Shown: piece after piece, positions 7,711 through 61,603 of the stretch | Layout of the letters: every line of letters starts with the position of its first letter | Numbering within the stretch: the stretch's first letter is position 1 | NCBI GenBank assembly: GCA_000381625.1 | Contig: KB906767.1 | Coordinates: 4,331,357-4,395,356, forward strand | Direction: 5' to 3' | DNA length: 64,000 nucleotides | From: Bryobacterales bacterium KBS 96 | GTDB taxonomy: Bacteria > Acidobacteriota > Terriglobia > Bryobacterales > Bryobacteraceae | The notes under the pieces: model-generated | What the model was told of the DNA's origin: nothing | The model's input: only the letters and a program-made list of their open reading frames with translations | Databases searched by the model: none | Translations under genes and position numbers: made by a program

Positions 7711-10700
7711 ATGTCTCAATCGACAGACCCCGCGTTGGGTATCAATAGCTGGCTGGAAGACGAGCTTTATCATCAATATCAATTCGACCGAAAGAGCGTG
7801 GACCAGGGTTGGACCGAGTTCTTTCAGCATTCCTCTAACAATGGAGGCGTGATCCCGGCCGAGACCCCGCCGGATGCAGCGCCCGCTGTCTCCGCCACTG
7901 CTCCTGAGGCGCCGCAAGCAGCCGCTCAACCTGCCGTTCCTGCCAGTCCCGCCCCGACGCCGCCCGCTCAGGAGTCCGCGCCCGCGCCGACTAAGGCTGT
8001 TGCAACCACCCTAAAGGTTCCAGCAAAGCAGGAACCCACTCTGGTTGGCCCGGGCGAACAACTCGTTCCTTTGCGCGGGGCCGCTGCTCGAATCGCCGAG
8101 AACATGGAGGCGAGCCTTTCCATTCCCGTCGCCACGTCACAACGGCAAATTCCTGTTCGCGTTATCGAAGAGAACCGGAACATCATTAACAAACAGCGGG
8201 CATTACAGGGAAAAGGCAAACTCAGCTTCACGCATATTATCGCCTGGGCCATTATCCGCGCCATCAAGAGCCATCCTTCCTTGAATCATGCATTTACGGA
8301 GAATGAAGGGCAGCCGTTTCGAATCGTTCGCAACAACATAAATATCGGCCTGGCGGTCGATGTTCCCGGCAAAGATGGATCGCGCTCGCTGATGGTGCCG
8401 AACATTAAAAACGCCGATGGCATGAGCTTTGCGCAGTTTGTTCAGGCCTACGACGAAATCGTCGCCCGAGCCCGGACGAATAAGCTGCAGATTGCCGATT
8501 TTCAGGGCACTACCATCTCGCTGACAAATCCCGGAACGGTTGGGACCTTCGGCAGCGTGCCTCGCCTGATGCCGGGGCAGGGCGCGATTATCGCAACCGG
8601 CGCCATGGACTATCCTGCCGAATTTGCCGCCACCAGCGACGAAACGCGCGCGATGCTTGGGATCTCGAAGGTGCTGATGGTCACTTGTACCTACGACCAC
8701 CGCATTATCCAGGGAGCCGAGTCCGGTTCCTTTCTCGGCAAGGTTCATCAGTTGTTGCTCGGCGAGGAGAATTTCTACGATCAGATTTTTCGCGACCTGA
8801 AAATCCCCTATCTTCCGATTAAGTGGCAATCCGATAAGCAAATTAATCCGCAGCGCCATTCGGCGTTGAATGCGGATGTCGCAAAAGAAGCGGCGGTCAT
8901 TCAGTTGATCAACGCGTACCGGGTGCGCGGTCATCTGATCGCCAACACAAACCCGTTGGGCGTCGAGCCAGGCTATCATCCCGAACTCGATCCATCTTCT
9001 TACGGGCTATCCCTTTGGGATTTGGACCGGCCGTTTCTGGCGGGAGCCGTGAAGGCCCCCAGCGGCGCGATCGCATCCTACATGCAGCCGTATGAAACGC
9101 TGCGCGAAATCCTTGATCGCTTGCGGCAAACGTACTGCGCGTCCATGGGCGTCGAGTACATGCACATTCAGGACCCCGAGCAGAAGCAATGGCTGCAGGA
9201 TCGTATGGAAGCGACCATGAATCTCTGGCCGCTCGATGAAGCCACGAAAATCCGCACCTTGAACCGTTTGATTCAGGCGGAAGAATTTGAGCACTTCCTG
9301 CAGCGCCGGTTTATCGGCCAGAAGCGGTTCGGCCTCGAAGGTGGAGAATCGACCATCGCGGTTCTGGATGAGGTTTTGGATCGCGCAGCCAATCAAAACG
9401 CCCATGAAGCCGTCATTGGGATGGCCCACCGCGGGCGGCTGAACGTGCTTGCGAACGTGGTCGGCAAATCCATGGTCCAGGTGTTCTCCGAGTTCGAGGG
9501 AGAGCCGGACCCGGACAGCGTCCAGGGGTCGGGCGACGTGAAGTACCATCTTGGCGCGAGCGGTATTCATCGCTCGTCGCAGGGCAAAGAGATTCTTGTC
9601 TCCGTCGCGTTCAATCCGAGTCACCTCGAGGCCGTAAACCCGGTGGTCGAGGGTCTCGTCCGGCCGAAACAGGATCGCTTGGGCGATGCCAAGAGGGAAC
9701 GGGTGATACCGATCCTCATACACGGCGACGCATCGTTTGTGGGACAGGGTGTGGTGGCCGAAGTTCTACAGCTTTCGCAACTCGACGGCTACACGACCGG
9801 CGGCACAGTTCATATCGTCATTAACAATCAGATCGGCTTCACGACAAATCCCATGGACGGACGCAGCAGCGTCTACTGCACCGACATTGCCCGGTCGGTG
9901 CAGGCGCCCATTCTGCACGTCAACGCGGATGATGCCGAGGCTTGCATCCGCGCCGCTAACCTCGCTTACGATTACCGGCAGCAGTTCAAGCGGGATGTCG
10001 TTATCGATCTCATCGGCTACCGGCGCCACGGTCACAACGAGGCTGACGACCCGAGCTACACGCAGCCGGTGATGTACCGCAGAATCAAGAATACGCCGAC
10101 CGCGGCGACGCAGTATTCCGAGCGGCTGCTGCGCGAGAAAGTCGTTAGCCAGGAACAGATCGATGGCATGCGCGGCGCCGTGGCCTCGCGTCTGAACGGG
10201 GTCTACGACGAAGCGAAGAAGAATCGTGAGCAGTACGTTTACGAAGAGTTCGCCGTTGTCCCGGAAGAACAGTTGAACCAGCCGATTCCCTCCACGGCCA
10301 TCGACTACGCGACCCTCAAGGCAGTTATTGAGAATTGCACGACTCTTCCCGAGAGTTTCCATCTTCACGCTAAGCTGAGGACCCTTGTCGATCGCAGGCG
10401 CGAGGCGCTCAACGGTGGACCTATCGATTGGGGTTTCGCCGAGACCATTGCCTTCGGTAGTCTGGTCCTGGAGGGCACGCCCGTGCGGCTGAGCGGTGAA
10501 GACTGCACCCGGGGCACGTTCACACAGCGGCATCTCGAGTTTTACGATACCGAAACCGGCGAAGGCTATCTCCCGCTGAAACACCTGCCAAACGCGGCGA
10601 AATTCGAGTCTATTGATAGCCTGTTGAGCGAATTTGCCGTAATGGGCTTCGAATTCGGCTACAGTGTGGCCGATCCGCTCACGCTTGTGTTGTGGGAGGC

Positions 10701-46648: not shown

Positions 46649-47632
46649 ATGACCGAGCATCCCAAAGTATTCATCAGCCATGCCAGCGAGGACAAGGAAC
46701 GATTCGTCACTAAGTTCTACGAGCGCCTTCGAGTAAAGGGCATTGACGCGTGGTTGGACAAGTTTGAAATGCTTCCCGGTGATTCCCTCGTCGACAAAAT
46801 ATTCAATGAGGGCCTCAAGCCTGCTGACGCCATGGTGGTCGTCCTCTCAAATACGAGTATCACGAAGCCGTGGGTTCAGAAGGAATTGAGCTTAGCACTT
46901 GTCAGGAATATCGTGGACAAGAAGCGCCTCATTCCGATGCGGCTCGACGCGTGCGAAGTTCCAGAATGTCTCCGGGATACCTTGTGGCAAGACATCCCCG
47001 ATCTTCAGAATTACGACGAGCAACTTGAGCGTATTGTGGCGGCGATTCACGGGCAGTATGATAAGCCGCCTCTCGGGAGTCGCCCGGCATACACCCACCT
47101 AGAGGTTTTGCAGATCGACGATCTCGCCCGGAATGACAGCCTGTTTCTGGCTGCCGCTTGCAAGATAGCAATGGAACAAGGGCATCCAGGGATCGATCCT
47201 GATCCGCTCGTAGAAGCTCTTAAGAAATTGGGGATCTCCGACCAGGACATGTTGGATGCCCAGGAAGTATTGGCGAATCGTTATTACATTAAGACGCACC
47301 CAACCATCGGTAGACCGCACGTTTATCATTTCGACATCACTACGAGCGGCTTCGAATCCTTTGCGCAGTCAGGCGGCATTCCAGCGTATGGAAAGAAGAT
47401 TACCGACGTTGCCCGCCTGCTTGTTGAAATCGTAGCGTTGAGCGGCGGCATGGCATCGAATACTTCGGTAGAGGCCGAACTAGAACTGCCACCGATGCTC
47501 GTAGAACATATCTTCAAGCGGCTCCGAGATAGCGGGCTGATCAAGTACGATACCGAGATTGGCGGTAGATTGTTCATGACGGTTTATAGGGTTTCGCCGG
47601 AGCTTCGGCGCCGCTTGGAGGGCAACGGTTAG
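46649..47632 (+). CDS. TIR-domain protein with C-terminal winged-helix region
   Basis: 327 residues from the ATG at 46649, which begins directly with the TIR domain; upstream in-frame codons run into hsdS. The TIR part (about 1-135) has KVFISHASEDKERFV at its first strand and the catalytic-type glutamate Glu79 in SITKPWVQKELSLAL, as in bacterial NAD-cleaving TIRs. The C-terminal part (about 150-327) reads like a winged-helix pair (LELPPMLVEHIFKRLRDSGL then IKYDTEIGGRLF). It follows hsdS by 37 bases on the same strand. Inference: an abortive-infection or partner defence gene linked to the R-M operon. Confidence 0.8.
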   Translation: MTEHPKVFISHASEDKERFVTKFYERLRVKGIDAWLDKFEMLPGDSLVDKIFNEGLKPADAMVVVLSNTSITKPWVQKELSLALVRNIVDKKRLIPMRLDACEVPECLRDTLWQDIPDLQNYDEQLERIVAAIHGQYDKPPLGSRPAYTHLEVLQIDDLARNDSLFLAAACKIAMEQGHPGIDPDPLVEALKKLGISDQDMLDAQEVLANRYYIKTHPTIGRPHVYHFDITTSGFESFAQSGGIPAYGKKITDVARLLVEIVALSGGMASNTSVEAELELPPMLVEHIFKRLRDSGLIKYDTEIGGRLFMTVYRVSPELRRRLEGNG

Positions 47633-48594: not shown

Positions 48595-50226
48595 ATGCCA
48601 CGCCTTCTGAAGAGTGAAACCGCACGTCGGCTGCTCGTGGGGCAACGAGCGCTTGCAACCGCATTCACCTCGCTCGCGACCCCGAAGAGCGTCTCTCACG
48701 AAAAAGACAAGTCAGACGGAGCCATTGAGATCGGGTTGATCGGCATCGCCGCCGAACTTGCCATCTCCGCGTGCCTCTACGAAATACTCGGGCCAGGAGC
48801 GATCATCAGAAAGGACAGTGGGTTCTACATCACCGCCGGGGAGGCGCTCGCAAGATTCCGTGAAGCCCTCGGCTCGGGCATTCCACGACTCTCGCTACTC
48901 ACGCAGGGCATCGGCGCTGCCGCCGATCATCTGAGTGCGCTCGATCGGTCCTGCGCGGGATTCAAGATCCTCTTCACGTCCCGAGCGGCAGCGGTCCACG
49001 CTGGCCAGGGAGCATCAGCAGATGTCGTGTTCGTCGTCGGCAAGGACGTCGCAAGCTTCTTTGAGCTCCTTGCGGCCAGTCCCAAGTGGAAACCCTATCT
49101 CAAAGACGTGCCAGCGGTGCCCTCCCTTCCCAAGGAGCGCACCATCATCGCGCAAGAACTCGCGGCAGCAGCAAAGGGTAAGGACAAAGCAGCCGTAGGG
49201 GCCGCGCTCGCCAACATCTTTCTCGTCCTGCCCGATCTGTCCGAGGATGCTCCCGAGTGGCTGTCCGCGCTGCAACACGTGCATGTGAACGCCAAACCGA
49301 ACGACATCTCCATCCTCCTCAAGACCCTGCAGAACGCCAAGGCCGGCGATCTCGTCAAAGTCGGCAAGGGCGCATCCGGCATCGCGACGAAGATCGACTC
49401 GAACAATCCGAACGCCCTTCCGATCTACATCGCCGGGATGAAAAAGAAGTTCGAGAACGCCGCTGACACATGGAATGCCTACGTGGGAACGGCAAACGCC
49501 CAGCTCGACCAGGGCGTACTCTCCTTGCCGCCTATCGCGGCGCTCTACGGGTTCTCTGCGCTCGGCATCGACGGTATCGGCCTTGCACCTGAGGAAATTA
49601 ACGAGGGTCTGCCGGCGCACGTGCTCTGGCCGTTCGTGGCGTCAGCCCTGAACTATAACGGCACGAAGGGTCCCTGCTTTTTTCTCGCTCGCTCCTTGAA
49701 GTCAGATGCAACAGGCCAACTGACAGCGCTCTTGAAGAAGGCAGCGACCAAGAGCACCACCCTCGCTAAAACTCTCAAGGACTACCTTCCGCTCATTGAT
49801 GCCACGGCCGCAAAGCAGCCCGCGCCCGCAAGCTCCACGCTCGCAACCACGCTCACCAAGAACGGCACGACGCGCGACGAGAACCGGGAGAACCTCGCCG
49901 ACTTCCTCGCGAACCGCCGCGAACTGGCGCCAGCCGAACGGCAGGCAGCGTACGATCAACTCGTCGCGACCTTCACGCAATCGGATTCCGTGGGAGCGTG
50001 CATCACGGCGATGGTCGAGGGAAAGATCAAGCTCGGCGATGACAAGTTCCCCGTACTTCGAGCCCTCATCGCTGCCGCCTCCGACCGCGAAGACATCGCG
50101 CCCCTCGCGCGCATTGTCCCCGAGAACGACCTCAAGATGGTCGCGACCCAAGCAAGAAAAGCCATTACGGAAATCGATTACGTCCTCTTCGGCCCACAAC
50201 CACCGAAAACGCGCAAAGCCACATAA
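48595..50226 (+). CDS. Unknown protein, possible HEPN domain, next to an Mrr-like nuclease fragment
   Basis: 543 residues, intact. I do not recognise the family. The N terminus has long hydrophobic helices (DGAIEIGLIGIAAELAISAC) and FTSRAAAVHAG, which fits the Rx4H motif of HEPN ribonucleases and lies at the end of a helix as in that fold. The rest is alanine- and lysine-rich helical sequence with no recognised catalytic motif. The Mrr-like nuclease piece starts 30 bases after its stop, with GGAGGAG before its ATG, so the two looked like an operon before the second gene was damaged. A defence role is suggested by this context only. Confidence 0.5.
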   Translation: MPRLLKSETARRLLVGQRALATAFTSLATPKSVSHEKDKSDGAIEIGLIGIAAELAISACLYEILGPGAIIRKDSGFYITAGEALARFREALGSGIPRLSLLTQGIGAAADHLSALDRSCAGFKILFTSRAAAVHAGQGASADVVFVVGKDVASFFELLAASPKWKPYLKDVPAVPSLPKERTIIAQELAAAAKGKDKAAVGAALANIFLVLPDLSEDAPEWLSALQHVHVNAKPNDISILLKTLQNAKAGDLVKVGKGASGIATKIDSNNPNALPIYIAGMKKKFENAADTWNAYVGTANAQLDQGVLSLPPIAALYGFSALGIDGIGLAPEEINEGLPAHVLWPFVASALNYNGTKGPCFFLARSLKSDATGQLTALLKKAATKSTTLAKTLKDYLPLIDATAAKQPAPASSTLATTLTKNGTTRDENRENLADFLANRRELAPAERQAAYDQLVATFTQSDSVGACITAMVEGKIKLGDDKFPVLRALIAAASDREDIAPLARIVPENDLKMVATQARKAITEIDYVLFGPQPPKTRKAT

Positions 50227-50255
50227 GGGTGTTGCACACTATTCCTGGAGGAGTA

Positions 50256-50690
50256 ATGGCACGTCACGGACGGGAAGTTCCGGATTGGAAGGAGTTCGAG
50301 CAGCTCGTAGCACGCATAGAAAAGGACGCTGATCCAATCGGATTGACGGTCACCTCCCCGGATAGATCTTATGCAAGATCACCGGCCGAAAACGAGAAGT
50401 TGATGTGAGCATCTGCAGCCATGCGGGAACGAGCAACATTCTGATCACCATCGAGTGTCGCAAGAGGCACCCGAAACAGGACGTCACGTGGATCGAGCAA
50501 CTCGCTGCGAAACGGGACGCCATCGGCGCATCATGCACGCTCGCGGTCAGTTCCTCAGGCTTCACGCCCAGTGCAGTAGCGGTCGCCAAGCGGCACGGCA
50601 TCCAGTTGCGGCGGCTGTCGGAAGTCTCCGTGACAGAGATCAACGCCCTGATGCGACTCGACTTCGTCGTCTTCACCCACAAACGCGCGG
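50256..50690 (+). pseudogene. Mrr-like restriction endonuclease fragment, frameshifted
   Basis: The reading frame starting at 50256 gives DWKEFEQLVARIEKDADPIG, then the protein continues in a second frame as KITGRKREVDVSI followed by ILITIECRKRHPKQDVTWIE and SSSGFTPSAVAVAKRHGIQL. This is a PD-(D/E)XK nuclease of the Mrr type, with ECR at the usual ExK position. The frame change is near 50365. The similarity ends about 50685, within LMRLDFVVFTHKRAA, where the sequence joins the tail of an unrelated gene. So the nuclease is broken twice and is probably not made in active form. Confidence 0.7.
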
Positions 50691-51194
50691 CTCTCGCGGT
50701 TCGCTGGCATTCCCTACGCCCCGATCAAACGGCTGCTCGCGAAGGACAACTGCGAGGTGCTGATCACGTTCATGGTGGACTCGATCAACCGGTGGCTCAC
50801 CCATCCCGACGAGAACATCCGCGCGCACATCACGGAGACGTTCGGCACCGAAGACGCCGTGAAGATCGCGTTCGGCACTGGGGACCGAGCGGAAGGGCTC
50901 AAGAACCTCTACTATCGGCAGTTGCGACAAGCCGCGAAATTCGTCCGGCACTTTGAAATGCGCGACCGCGACAACCGCGTCGTTTACTACCTGTTCTTCG
51001 CCACGAACAACCCAGTCGGGCACCTCAAGATGAAGGAGGCCATGTGGAAGGTCGATCCCATGGGCGACTTCTGGTTCTCGGACGCCACCGACCCGAACCA
51101 GGCGCTCCTGTTCAATGCGCCATCCACCGCGCCCCTCGCCGGAGCCCTAGCCGCGAAATTCAACGGCACCCCACAGGTTGAGGCGTGGGCATAA
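50691..51194 (+). pseudogene. C-terminal fragment of three-Cys-motif partner protein TcmP
   Basis: In the frame beginning about 50691 the sequence gives RFAGIPYAPIKRLLAKDNCE, then LITFMVDSINRWLTHPDENI and AKFVRHFEMRDRDNRVVYYL, ending in KMKEAMWKVDPMGDFWFSDA and a stop at 51194. This is the C-terminal half of TcmP, a protein found in defence contexts with three-Cys-motif partners. Its N terminus is missing and its frame differs from the adjoining Mrr-like piece by one register, so a deletion or recombination appears to have fused the two genes out of frame. It could be a start-in-the-middle product, but no good start was seen. Confidence 0.72.
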
Positions 51195-55557: not shown

Positions 55558-57213
55558 ATGTGTGGAGACATTTCTATTGATATCGGCGATGCACTGCCGT
55601 ACTACACGGAAAAGCTGTTGAAATTCTTCGGCAAGGACGTGGGTACGAAAACGGCCAATGAACGATTCATGCGTATGCAACACATGGGCATAGAACGTGC
55701 TTCATTCATCCAGTGTGTGGGAATGCCTGACCCTATCCGGCTAGAGCGTCTTTATCAGCCTTCGAGACTGTACACCGACGTTGGCACCACCACCACGGTC
55801 CAGGATGTAGTCCGATCTGAAAAGTCGGCCGTCATCATGGCCGGACCCGGTCGGGGAAAGACAACTCTGTTGCATTGGGTTTTCATTACGACGCTTCGAG
55901 ACGAAACATTGCCGTTGCTTTTCACGCTTCGGCTTCCCTCGGCTGTGGAGGATTTGGCAAATCTAATCGGGTATTTAAAGGAGGGAACGAATATCAAAGG
56001 TCTTAAACAGAAACTCCTTCTGCTCGTTGACGGGTACGATGAAATTGACGAATCGGAGCGCAAGCTCGTCTCCGACAGTTTAAGTGAATTCAAGACTCTC
56101 CATCGCGGCTCATTCCTTTTGACTTGCCGCTCTTATTACTCTGTTTTAGATCTTTTCGCATCCCAGTATAATGTCGCGCCTTTCGCCCCGGAGGACAGCG
56201 AACGTTTCGTGAACACGTTCGCGAGCGCCATTGGAGTCGATATTGACGGGGCTGACTTCTGTCGGGAACTCATCGCCAGGGGGTTTGATGATTTTGTCGG
56301 GCATCCACTAATGCTAGCGCTGGCCTGTGTGCTCAGGACGGGTCCCTTGCAATCGATTCCTTCGAATGCTATTGGGCTGATCCGGCGTGCGCTTGACACG
56401 CTAACTTTTCGATGGGATGAGTCGAAAGGCATTGCGCGAGATGCGGCATTGCCCGTCGATGGCGAAGTGCGCCAAAGATGCTTGATGCGTGTTGCTTTCG
56501 AGTGCGTGAGACTCCCCGCGGCAAAAGAGGCCGTGGAGGCTCATGTGCGAACGCAGCTATCCCTCGAACAATGTGATGCCGCTGATCCGGGACGTCTGCT
56601 CGATGAAATGGCTAAATGGTATGGAATTCTTATACCGACCGCATCTGGAGAATGGGAGTTCGTTCATAAGTCTCTCCATGACTATCTCGCCGCGCGTTAT
56701 TGGGTGGAAAGTGGCCGATTCAACCCTTCCAGTGTCGAACGATGGAGCACTCGCGCATCTTATGCGTGCTGCCTGGTTCCCGACGGTACTTCCGGAATCT
56801 GCTGCGCGCTGAGGCTGACCTCCGGACTGAGCGGGTTAATAGAATGCATATACAACCGGGCGGCATTCGACGGACATGTTGTCGCCCGTGCCCTACACAG
56901 AGCTTTTCGCGACGACAATACGCTTAGGTTGGTTGTGCAAAAGGACTCGCATCGATTCTCGATTGCGCCCGAAGCCGACTTCTTCGGCTTAGCTAAAACG
57001 GAATTTTTGCATGACCTCCTCGTAGCTCCTGCAGAGCCCTCAAACGGGCGCTTGGTGCTGGCTGCGTATTGCCTAGCGGAGTTGAACAGGCGCGGCAAAA
57101 TTATTGAGCGCAAAATTCTGCCGGAGTATGTTAAAAGCTTGGAAACGTTTACGGTCGCTAGGCGTCATGGCCTCCAGCAGGTACGGCTTGCTGATTGCAT
57201 CTCGCGACCTTAG
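55558..57213 (+). CDS. NACHT-domain STAND ATPase (candidate anti-phage protein)
   Basis: 551 residues. An N-terminal region of about 75 residues of unknown type is followed by the NACHT NTPase: Walker A MAGPGRGKTTLLH (about residue 96) and Walker B LLLLVDGYDEID with the NACHT-type small residue and acidic pair (about 157). A sensor-like RSYYS and winged-helix region follow (about 215-380, WEFVHKSLHDYLAARYW). The C-terminal 150 residues are helical with no clear repeats. Known bacterial NACHT proteins (bNACHT/Avs) sense phage and trigger cell death through an N-terminal effector; the short N-terminus here is not a recognised nuclease. It appears alone among mobile-element debris. Confidence 0.8.
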   Translation: MCGDISIDIGDALPYYTEKLLKFFGKDVGTKTANERFMRMQHMGIERASFIQCVGMPDPIRLERLYQPSRLYTDVGTTTTVQDVVRSEKSAVIMAGPGRGKTTLLHWVFITTLRDETLPLLFTLRLPSAVEDLANLIGYLKEGTNIKGLKQKLLLLVDGYDEIDESERKLVSDSLSEFKTLHRGSFLLTCRSYYSVLDLFASQYNVAPFAPEDSERFVNTFASAIGVDIDGADFCRELIARGFDDFVGHPLMLALACVLRTGPLQSIPSNAIGLIRRALDTLTFRWDESKGIARDAALPVDGEVRQRCLMRVAFECVRLPAAKEAVEAHVRTQLSLEQCDAADPGRLLDEMAKWYGILIPTASGEWEFVHKSLHDYLAARYWVESGRFNPSSVERWSTRASYACCLVPDGTSGICCALRLTSGLSGLIECIYNRAAFDGHVVARALHRAFRDDNTLRLVVQKDSHRFSIAPEADFFGLAKTEFLHDLLVAPAEPSNGRLVLAAYCLAELNRRGKIIERKILPEYVKSLETFTVARRHGLQQVRLADCISRP

Positions 57214-59369: not shown

Positions 59370-59823
59370 ACGACTCTGAACGGGCGAGCGGCAAACTCCT
59401 CTTTTCTGCGCATCTTGACTACGCTTCTAATCCCCCGCGTGTCCGCACAACGAAGGGCTTGCGGTTGGTGTCCTTGTTGAGTTTGGCTGGCCTTCTCAAT
59501 TTCCGGCTTGTCGACAATCCTCCCGCAAAATCCTATCAATGAGCGCATTGCCCTGTGGTCGTCACTCCGGACAAGGTATGCAAGATCGGCGGCTGCCTCG
59601 CAGACCACTTCTAGCTATGTGCTGTTCCGTCCAATTCCCGAGTCCCTTTTCCCCGTAGCGCCGCTGGGAATCATCAACAGCGACTTCCTCCCCCACCCCT
59701 GCGAATGATGTAATGCTGGCCCCCTTGGTTGTGCCGGTTGATCCACAGGATAATAACCGGGACTGGCGCAGGCGGGCACGGTGGTATCCTCCTGTTAAAC
59801 ATCAATTCGGAGGAGTTAGGACC
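59370..59823. other. Gap before the sce7725-like gene
   Basis: About 450 bases. A minus-strand frame (59608 down to about 59360) gives a weak protein-like stretch, EAAADLAYLVRSDDHRAMRS, that I cannot identify. No start signals support it. The last bases contain GGAGGAG at 59809-59815, the ribosome-binding site of the next gene. Confidence 0.3.
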
Positions 59824-60993
59824 ATGCCGGCAGATAAGGATTCCTCGCGCCCGAAGCGGCAGAGGAAGGAACCGCAGCCCACCAAAACTGCATTGAGAGT
59901 TGCGCGGGCGCAGGTTGCAGTTCCGCATGTTGGACTCGCTTTCAATCACAAGCACCACATCTTTATCGCAAAACTGAAACGCGGCGAAGTATGGGCGTTG
60001 AACCAACTGAGTTTCAATGCAAAGACGGCGGTCACGCCGCTCTTTGAAATCTGGCCTCCGAATCCCGGAACAAAAAACAAACCGGCGAAGACTCTCACAG
60101 AGCACACGACTGACCTGATGCAGTTTGTCGCAACCGAATGGACGGGACTTCCATGTTACGTTGACACGCAGTATTTGGTCGCTGGTGGGGCACCGTCGCC
60201 CGCATCGGTTCAGACCGTGTTCGGCATTGCGCGTAACGCAAATGTTGTCGCCATTCCTGTCACTTCGCTCAAGTTCGCCCAGCCCTTTCAACAGGCCATT
60301 GCTGCTGTGATCGCAGCAGACGGGCGCGGCGTGATGTTCCGTCTTACGCTTGACCTTTTCAATGCGCCGCAAATGCTCGGGCAATATCTTGACGGCCTTG
60401 CAAACTTCCTCGCGGTGAATCGGAATCAGGTGGATATTCTCATCGACCTCCAGTACCGGCCGAACGTCGTGGAGGTTCAGCAGATGGGTGCCTATTGTCT
60501 AAACAACCTGCCATTCATGAATGATTGGCGGACCCTAACCCTCGCGGCGGGTTGCTTCCCGTCCTCAATCTCCGATGAACCCACCGGCCAGTGGATTGAC
60601 TTTGACCGAAGTGATTGGAGAGGGTGGAATACGATCATCGGGCAGCGAGCGGCGGCAAATGTACGGGTGCCGTCATACGGCGATTACGGCGTCCGATGTG
60701 GAGGAGAACCACTCGTGATACCTAACGCTCCTGCCCCGAACATCAGGTATACGGACAGCCAAGTGATTCGGGTGAGAAAAGGACCGAAGGCACCCGGAGC
60801 GACGAGAGCAATCTGTGTGTCACTGGTGAGCCAGCCCTACTTCAGGGGTACGCAATTCACTCAAGGCGATGCTGACATTGCACAGAAAGCAGCCACGACA
60901 AATCCGGCGAATGGCTCACCAGAGCAGTGGATTCAATGGTGCACGAATCATCATCTTGAGTTGACTTTCTCGGAAATCCAGAGCCTCCCCTAA
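59824..60993 (+). CDS. sce7725-like protein, phage T4 beta-protein family
   Basis: 389 residues from the ATG at 59824, chosen for GGAGGAG eight bases upstream; the frame also opens earlier. It matches the beta family: an opening FIAKLKRGEVWALNQL and TAVTPLFEIWPPN, a central alternating beta/alpha region (ILIDLQYRPNVVEVQQMG) and a C-terminal ...WIQWCTNHHLELTFSEIQSL. Homologues are paired in many bacteria with sce7726-type proteins. The pair here is convergent and overlaps by 137 bases. The role of the family is unknown; phage T4 beta is an accessory protein. Confidence 0.72.
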   Translation: MPADKDSSRPKRQRKEPQPTKTALRVARAQVAVPHVGLAFNHKHHIFIAKLKRGEVWALNQLSFNAKTAVTPLFEIWPPNPGTKNKPAKTLTEHTTDLMQFVATEWTGLPCYVDTQYLVAGGAPSPASVQTVFGIARNANVVAIPVTSLKFAQPFQQAIAAVIAADGRGVMFRLTLDLFNAPQMLGQYLDGLANFLAVNRNQVDILIDLQYRPNVVEVQQMGAYCLNNLPFMNDWRTLTLAAGCFPSSISDEPTGQWIDFDRSDWRGWNTIIGQRAAANVRVPSYGDYGVRCGGEPLVIPNAPAPNIRYTDSQVIRVRKGPKAPGATRAICVSLVSQPYFRGTQFTQGDADIAQKAATTNPANGSPEQWIQWCTNHHLELTFSEIQSLP

Positions 60994-61567
60994 CCTTGAT
61001 TGCTTGCCGGACTTCATCTGTGAGGACCGGCACGGGGATACATTCGGCCATAGCAAGCAATACCTCTTCGGCGGTGTTTCTTGAGGTAACGATTTTGTGG
61101 CCGTACTTGCGTAAGCACGCGAGTGCTTCAGCCTTCCAAAACATTCCGGCCAACGCGAGCGCATCCTGAGATGGATTCAGTTTAGGCGCCCTGATGTTCC
61201 GCAATACAACCTGTCCGCCCTTGTATACGGCTTTTTGCAGACCCCACCAGTCGGGAACCGTCGTGCGAGCTCGTTCCAAGAGGCGCCGTCCGCAGACTAG
61301 CGTTACGTACTCGAAGACGCCCCGGTAAGCCTCAACTTGGCCGGGTAGCCGTTCCAAGCTGTCACTGTCACTCTTGATCTCGAACGCATGAAGCGAGCCA
61401 TTGATAACGGCCACATCTGCACGGGCTGCGTTGCAGCCGAATTCCTCAACGATCAAGTCATGTCGCGGATCGTTGTACTTCTGGCCTAGATTGGCGAGCA
61501 GCACGCGACGGATGTCCGAATCGCGCGTGACAAGTTGCTCCCCCGATTTGCCCGCCCGTGTGGCCAC
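60857..61567 (-). CDS. sce7726-like protein with PD-(D/E)XK-type motif
   Basis: 236 residues from a GTG at 61567 (a TTG at 61603 is possible). ADVAVINGSLHAFEIKSDSD gives the Asp and Glu-x-Lys of a PD-(D/E)XK nuclease-like fold, preceded by the helix RDSDIRRVLLANLGQKYND and by VEEFGC. The C-terminal about 35 residues, which overlap the convergent gene, look unlike the rest and may be an extension after loss of an earlier stop. It pairs with the sce7725-like gene; a toxin or defence role is only inferred. Confidence 0.68.
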   Translation of the reverse strand: MATRAGKSGEQLVTRDSDIRRVLLANLGQKYNDPRHDLIVEEFGCNAARADVAVINGSLHAFEIKSDSDSLERLPGQVEAYRGVFEYVTLVCGRRLLERARTTVPDWWGLQKAVYKGGQVVLRNIRAPKLNPSQDALALAGMFWKAEALACLRKYGHKIVTSRNTAEEVLLAMAECIPVPVLTDEVRQAIKVRGGSGFPRKSTQDDDSCTIESTALVSHSPDLSWLLSVQCQHRLE

Positions 61568-61603
61568 GGTTGGATTGTAGCGCGGGCCATGCTTGGCAGC
61601 CAA

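Follow-up and report, generated by a model that had tools for sequence, protein, structure and literature searches.

A rare undescribed 543-residue protein family found beside an Mrr-like nuclease gene in two Bryobacteraceae genomes

When an uncharacterised gene stands directly ahead of a damaged nuclease gene, are the two chance neighbours or the remains of a functional unit, and what might the first gene encode? The question is raised by a locus within a 64,000-nucleotide stretch of the genome of Bryobacterales bacterium KBS 96, here called the window (G000:C1:4331357-4395356, G000 being the window's own genome). A preliminary description, made from the sequence of the locus, had proposed that an intact gene of 543 residues carrying a HEPN-like Rx4H motif and an Mrr-like nuclease gene behind it form an undescribed two-gene defence module, now damaged in this strain. 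The features on which the argument turns are the following:

48595..50226, + strand: gene for the 543-aa protein, a candidate immune-type family without prior description; reading frame intact, 543 codons
48982..48999, + strand: candidate Rx4H motif, R130-AAAV-H135, located by its codons and invariant in 3/3 copies
50247..50253, + strand: GGAGGAG ahead of the start codon of the Mrr-like gene, read from the sequence
50256..50408, + strand: first fragment of the Mrr-like gene, about residues 1-36 and then out of frame to a stop, assigned by homology
50357..50698, + strand: further Mrr-like fragment, read in a different frame; covers residues 34-148 at 79% identity to the intact protein of genome G349
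50700..51194, + strand: C-terminal half of TcmP (three-Cys-motif partner, PADLOC PDC-M30A), a neighbour and not a member of the pair, assigned by profile match

The 543-aa gene is a single unbroken reading frame (48595-50226), as had been described, and neither Pfam, PADLOC, NCBIfam and PHROGs nor the PDB sequences yielded a family for its protein. The sole Pfam rows (E 0.11 and 0.24) both fall below the cut-off, and the PADLOC models returned no family for the window copy at E up to 1 and none for the copy of G349 at E up to 0.1; Rfam likewise gave no match at gathering scores between 46000 and 52000 of the window. Three complete copies of the family were found, namely that of the window, one on an IMG/VR contig (L006, 80% identity) and one in G349 (L010, 77%). 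Comparing the three, with synonymous sites near saturation and dS correspondingly rough, gives dN/dS values of 0.066 and 0.103 where the window copy is included and 0.070 for the remaining pair; the gene is under purifying selection and the window copy, by these values, shows no clear relaxation of it.

The family is sparsely distributed. Within the phylum, 4 of 297 genomes gave a match, these being the window's own genome and three chance matches; L003, L004 and L005 (E 0.0016-0.0078) were rejected as relatives because the matches cover just 60 to 77 residues, that of L005 inside a 65-aa frame and those of L003 and L004 in frames that we take to be antisense to ordinary enzyme genes. The family is represented in G000, in G349 and, by a relic of residues 1-33, in G611, which amounts to 3 of 349 genomes of the class, 3 of 257 of the order and 3 of 237 of the family, the phylum, class, order and family sets overlapping one another. 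A search of 299 genomes of another phylum returned no match to the 543-aa protein, a result that, having no positive control, shows little. No relative was found among plasmids (E up to 0.01), among phages (E up to 0.1) or in a scan of GTDB contigs that needs exact short peptide patterns, and four viral scans, in which the query was the window protein, a part of it or its alignments, returned the L006 contig alone. The literature searched, as far as its text was accessible, holds no description of the 543-aa gene and Mrr-like gene as a pair, which does not by itself show absence from print. The 543-aa protein is a member of a rare undescribed family. The window's genome also holds a relic of a second family copy (L012, G000:C1:1464472-1464691), about 60 residues with a stop, covering residues about 90-104 and 121-163.

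The Mrr-like gene starts with an ATG at 50256, 29 nt after the stop of the 543-aa gene (30 bases in the preliminary description), and the GGAGGAG reported ahead of it is present at 50247-50253. The Mrr-like nature of the downstream frames also holds, window positions 50405-50953 matching Pfam Mrr_cat with E 7e-4 at 20.1 bits, just under the 21-bit cut-off. When the Mrr-like protein of G349 was used as a tblastn query, residues 8-36 were found at 50280-50366, in a frame that stops at 50406, and residues 34-148 in a different frame at 50357-50698. The match ends at 50668-50698 for five of six Mrr queries and at 50725 for the other, and from about 50700 the sequence matches TcmP (TIGR04474 positions 141-262, E 2e-22), so that the second half of the Mrr-like gene is missing and a TcmP tail stands in its place near 50699. 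As TcmP continues in a different frame from the longer Mrr piece, no fusion protein is expected. The first start given by the ORF finder in the longer Mrr frame is a GTG at 50405, just after the invariant residue D49. Frameshifted, with D49 ahead of this start and a match ending near residue 148, the window copy is not intact, and the damage suspected from the sequence is therefore real, consisting of a frameshift and a TcmP junction near 50699. Programmed frameshifting was rejected as an account of the break, since the gene has lost its second half as well and runs into TcmP sequence that is read in a different frame.

An undamaged version of the arrangement occurs in G349, which belongs to the same family as the window genome. 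Its 543-family gene (L010, 8015-9646, 77% protein identity) ends 5 nt ahead of an intact Mrr-like gene of 319 aa (9652-10611), whose product matches Mrr_cat with E 2e-7 at 31.6 bits, above the cut-off of 21. An intact neighbouring nuclease is accordingly found in one of the two other complete copies, and the notion that homologues are never adjacent to the nuclease is refuted. In the family set of 237 genomes, of which 148 reach 90% completeness with no more than 5% contamination, two have a complete 543-aa gene, and those two, G000 and G349, are also the ones with a close Mrr relative (E below 1e-50); in both, the genes are adjacent. Relaxing the Mrr threshold to E 1e-5 gives matches in eight genomes, with the close one confined to G000 and G349. 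The two pairs come from different genera, are about 73% identical in DNA and keep the same gene order, with gaps of 29 nt and 5 nt, and each probably constitutes one operon.

The two genes have also diverged to a similar degree. Between the window and L010, the 543-aa gene has an amino-acid identity of 0.77 and a pN of 0.138; for Mrr residues 34-148, a piece of 113 codons whose dS is not computable, the values are 0.81 and 0.131. Third codon positions account for 280 of 434 differences in the former and 72 of 101 in the latter. The N-terminal Mrr piece of 36 codons is less alike (identity 0.67, pN 0.229). Because both genes diverge alike and mostly at third codon positions, the damage in the window looks recent, a dating that the less similar N-terminal piece and the near-saturated synonymous sites make tentative; the codon pattern suggests that the two genes worked as a unit in both lineages before the window copy broke.

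The nuclease itself has a wider distribution. Relatives with 45-62% identity were found at six GTDB loci, in organisms that by their titles belong to several phyla, together with one viral locus encoding an Mrr-like nuclease (28% identity); plasmids gave partial matches only, in 3 records in one search and 2 in another. The neighbours of these relatives vary: in L018 (4093-6984) the order is TcmP, a radical-SAM-pair-A-like gene (100.6 bits, below its 355-bit cut-off) and then Mrr; in L017 (4673-7047) TcmP overlaps the Mrr-like gene; in L014 a same-strand ORF of 428 aa lies upstream; and in L015, L016 and L019 no partner was recognised beside the Mrr-like gene, whose reading frame looks interrupted in L019. 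None of the six genomes has a match to the 543 family. Given these genomes and the TcmP neighbours of L017 and L018, the nuclease is not exclusive to the 543-aa protein, which suggests that one Mrr-like nuclease is common to different partner genes.

Across seven aligned sequences (L010 and six relatives, L019 left out), D49, E66, R68 and Q81 are invariant. We take these residues to be the PD-(D/E)XK core, in which the position of the ExK lysine is apparently occupied by arginine. The partner gene resembles Mrr and other type IV restriction nucleases in having an Mrr_cat domain (PF04471); it differs in the length of the G349 protein, about 320 aa with the Pfam match at residues 9-118 and none in the second half, and in following a 543-aa gene in two genomes. 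The arrangement also recalls the TcmP pairs (TIGR04474; TIGR04471-like; PDC-M30A), inasmuch as TcmP immediately precedes the nuclease gene in L017, TcmP and the radical-SAM-pair-A-like gene precede it in L018, and in the window the broken Mrr abuts the tail of a TcmP gene. The 543-aa protein, in contrast, has no match to the TcmP model, and tblastn with the TcmP proteins of L017 and L018 found no TcmP in L010.

The remaining complete copy of the 543 family is phage-borne. The L006 contig encodes a major head protein (E 8e-78), a head maturation protease, head decoration and tail proteins by PHROGs matches, and its capsid is 71% identical to that of phage WO. The 543-aa gene lies on the opposite strand, between a gene of 206 aa (8107-8727) that has no PHROG match and a tape-measure-like gene with a weak one (E 0.0056), and its G+C content is 57.2%, against 62.9% for the whole of L006. 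Six Mrr queries found no Mrr in this 31-kb record, which may be a fragment.

To describe this position we used the best 80 of 120 IMG/VR stretches that encode a relative of the 206-aa gene (L045-L124, L045 being the L006 contig). The distance from the 206-aa gene to the tape measure is 316-325 nt in 31 loci and 643-2774 nt in 38, so that the site is empty in 31 and filled in 38 of the 69 measurable loci (11 of the 80 were not measurable); the L006 site is accordingly a variable locus between two conserved genes, with both empty and filled versions. The 543-aa gene itself was found in one of the 80, the L006 contig. The cargo is often on the opposite strand, and in some filled sites the coding status of the ORFs is presumed. 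Sixteen distinct filled-site ORFs were scanned, ten against Pfam and ten against PADLOC, with four in both. The matches comprise PDC-S02 (L055, E 2e-83), HicB (L051), PIN and AF2212-like (L100), an HTH protein (L059), a UvrD helicase (L096), a metallo-beta-lactamase fold (L047) and DUF4926 (L069), so the cargo of other loci includes toxin-antitoxin genes and one PADLOC candidate. No match was found for L106 in Pfam and PADLOC, for L107 in Pfam, or in PADLOC for L047:6907-7920, L064, L071, L097, L098 and L110. P2 and P4 phages are described as having hotspots, small variable loci between two conserved genes that carry antiviral systems (PMC9122126). The L006-type site is alike in being small, variable, set between conserved genes and supplied with defence-type cargo, and it fits the published notion of small phage antiviral hotspots; it differs in belonging to a different phage group and in its position, flanked by a tail gene and the tape-measure gene.

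The bacterial copies likewise have mobile and defence-type surroundings. The island of the window has an integrase beside a tRNA-Leu, type I restriction-modification genes (hsdR-like, hsdM and hsdS), a TIR protein, transposase genes of IS110, Y2 and Mutator type, a PD-Lambda-2_C/Beta_protein gene and an sce7726 gene. That of G349 has an integrase, a plasmid RepA-like gene, a HamB-like helicase (E 6e-34), a helicase like PDC-S41/AbiO/Nhi and, about 10 kb upstream of the 543-aa gene, a weak relative of Avs4 (E 6e-9). A defence role drawn from island location is an association, and the function is to that extent predicted.

It had also been proposed that the 543-aa protein is a HEPN ribonuclease. 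The string on which this was based, FTSRAAAVHAG, is where it was reported to be, with R130 encoded at 48982-48984 and H135 at 48997-48999, and no R-x4-6-H other than R130-AAAV-H135 occurs in any of the three complete proteins. With 22 R and 6 H in the protein, however, at least one R-x4-6-H arose in 2610 of 5000 shuffled versions, and in a second shuffle set an Rx4H arose in 1083 of 5000; the presence of the motif alone is therefore no evidence for HEPN, and the shuffles count against that identity. The HEPN survey gives the residue after R as typically N, D or H (PMC3710099), from which A131, non-polar and present in all three copies, departs, although 'typically' in that text does not make a strict requirement (PMC3710099). 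What speaks for a genuine HEPN ribonuclease, a toxin or abortive-infection effector which with the nuclease would make the pair one of combined RNA and DNA cleavage, is that this single R-x4-H is invariant in 3/3 copies and falls within residues 121-150, a block 90% invariant and level with 271-300 as the two most conserved of the 30-residue blocks (the least conserved full block, 421-450, is 33% invariant). With only three sequences of 77-84% identity, however, such invariance is weak evidence.

Profile searches for a HEPN family gave no match. Pfam with N-terminal pieces at a limit of E 10 found none, the HMMER filters dropping most matches above about 0.1, and hhalign of the 543 family against DUF3644 and DUF4145 members gave probabilities of at most 0.5%, and of 0.1% against five DUF3644 proteins. 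A positive control within DUF3644 works (97.2% and 99.6%); the control of DUF3644 against DUF4145, between HEPN families, fails, so that the test has little power and its negative is weak against remote HEPN kinship. The DUF3644 set labelled 'six' in this comparison consists of five proteins, L129 having yielded no sequence, and another DUF3644 alignment includes L129 as 31 aa of unrelated sequence; some of the DUF3644 and DUF4145 proteins are the longest ORF near a match, chosen automatically. Among the retrieved loci, L034 and L036 (two parts of a single broken gene), L041 and L130 did not enter the analysis. No HEPN_Apea members were found in 60 genomes, and a viral scan with a DUF3644 protein as query returned no relative. 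AlphaFold2 with the three-row alignment gave models of very low confidence for the full-length protein (pLDDT 35.6, pTM 0.23) and for residues 1-178 (pLDDT 41.8, pTM 0.32), and it is solely in these that helices appear before and after the motif. Their pattern is compatible with HEPN, though we give it almost no weight. An acidic residue, E54, falls in a preceding predicted helix, which agrees with what the survey describes for helix 2 (PMC3710099). The survey also reports N-terminal domains common to fusions with either HEPN or Mrr-type nucleases (PMC3710099), a further point in favour of the HEPN reading. Beside the HEPN superfamily (DUF3644, DUF4145 and others) the 543-aa protein thus offers a likeness in one R-x4-H and a possible helical neighbourhood, set against the missing profile match, the A after R, the chance-level motif and the absence of a confident fold. 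The HEPN assignment is not borne out by the motif, by the residue after R or by profile and sequence matches, and as an established identity we reject it; the AlphaFold2 models are too poor to speak for or against a four-helix HEPN core with the motif at the end of helix 3. That the protein is nevertheless a HEPN ribonuclease we consider doubtful, a reading that is a special case of the explanation preferred below and whose likelihood overlaps with it.

What, then, is the pair for? The explanation we prefer, giving it about an even chance, is that the 543-aa protein is an immune-type protein borne by mobile elements, which travels alone or paired with an Mrr-like nuclease. The phage copy would show it able to travel alone, and in the Bryobacteraceae its gene would form a two-gene operon with that of the Mrr-like PD-(D/E)XK nuclease. 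Most likely the 543-aa protein would sense or act on an invading element and the nuclease would add DNA cleavage, a defence function and a division of labour that we infer; in the window the nuclease would have been killed, apparently recently, by the frameshift and the TcmP junction, the 543-aa gene being without sign of decay. Of the module first proposed, the pair and its defence-type setting in islands and a phage cargo site thus stand, and the HEPN membership does not. Weighing against our preferred explanation are the phage copy without Mrr, in a 31-kb record that is possibly a fragment, the six genomes that have wider Mrr relatives and no 543 family, two of them with TcmP beside the nuclease, and the failure of the 543-aa protein to match any PADLOC model; two of three complete copies with an adjacent Mrr is, moreover, a small sample, both being from one family.

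Several of these points would suit a lone type IV-like restriction nuclease to which island traffic has brought the 543-aa gene as an unrelated neighbour, since wider Mrr relatives do without that gene, beside TcmP or with no recognised partner, and the phage copy does without Mrr. That account is unlikely in view of the gene order kept between different genera at about 73% DNA identity, with gaps of 5 and 29 nt, and of the similar divergence of both genes. Somewhat less probable still is that the 543-aa protein serves the fitness of phages or islands outside defence, by anti-defence, regulation or lysogeny: its gene stands alone in a phage cargo site of a kind that also carries ORFs without a recognised defence role, whereas in the bacterial genomes it has defence-type neighbours and a linked nuclease. 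A further version of the immune-type explanation, which we regard as a long shot, would make the protein the founder of a novel family of compact immune effectors whose active site is diverged but HEPN-like, acting alone against competing phages and, with the Mrr-like DNase of islands, cutting both RNA and DNA. If the pair is a defence module, an undescribed family would join an Mrr-like nuclease of about 320 aa that elsewhere stands beside TcmP, and one nuclease would serve several kinds of sensor or partner gene. That the 543 family also moves in phages is shown by its copy at the cargo site, and the tail-gene/tape-measure site provides, independently of the 543-aa gene, a list of candidate phage-borne defence genes.

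Other features of the window were recorded along the way. Outside the tRNA-Leu region itself, the window has no exact repeat of 14 or more of that region's bases, and hence no att repeat that would mark the distal end of the island. A TIR-domain protein (TIR_2, E 4e-27) is encoded at 46649-47632, immediately behind the type I restriction-modification genes; its C-terminal part gave a weak match only (HTH_Cmi2_C, E 0.015). Positions 55558-57213 encode a 551-aa protein with a weak match, far below the cut-off, to the NACHT antiphage protein EruA (E 5e-6). Further along, a Beta_protein / PD-Lambda-2_C-like gene (59713-60993, + strand) overlaps a gene of the sce7726 family (60857-61603, - strand), which is also matched by the PADLOC model 'cll'.
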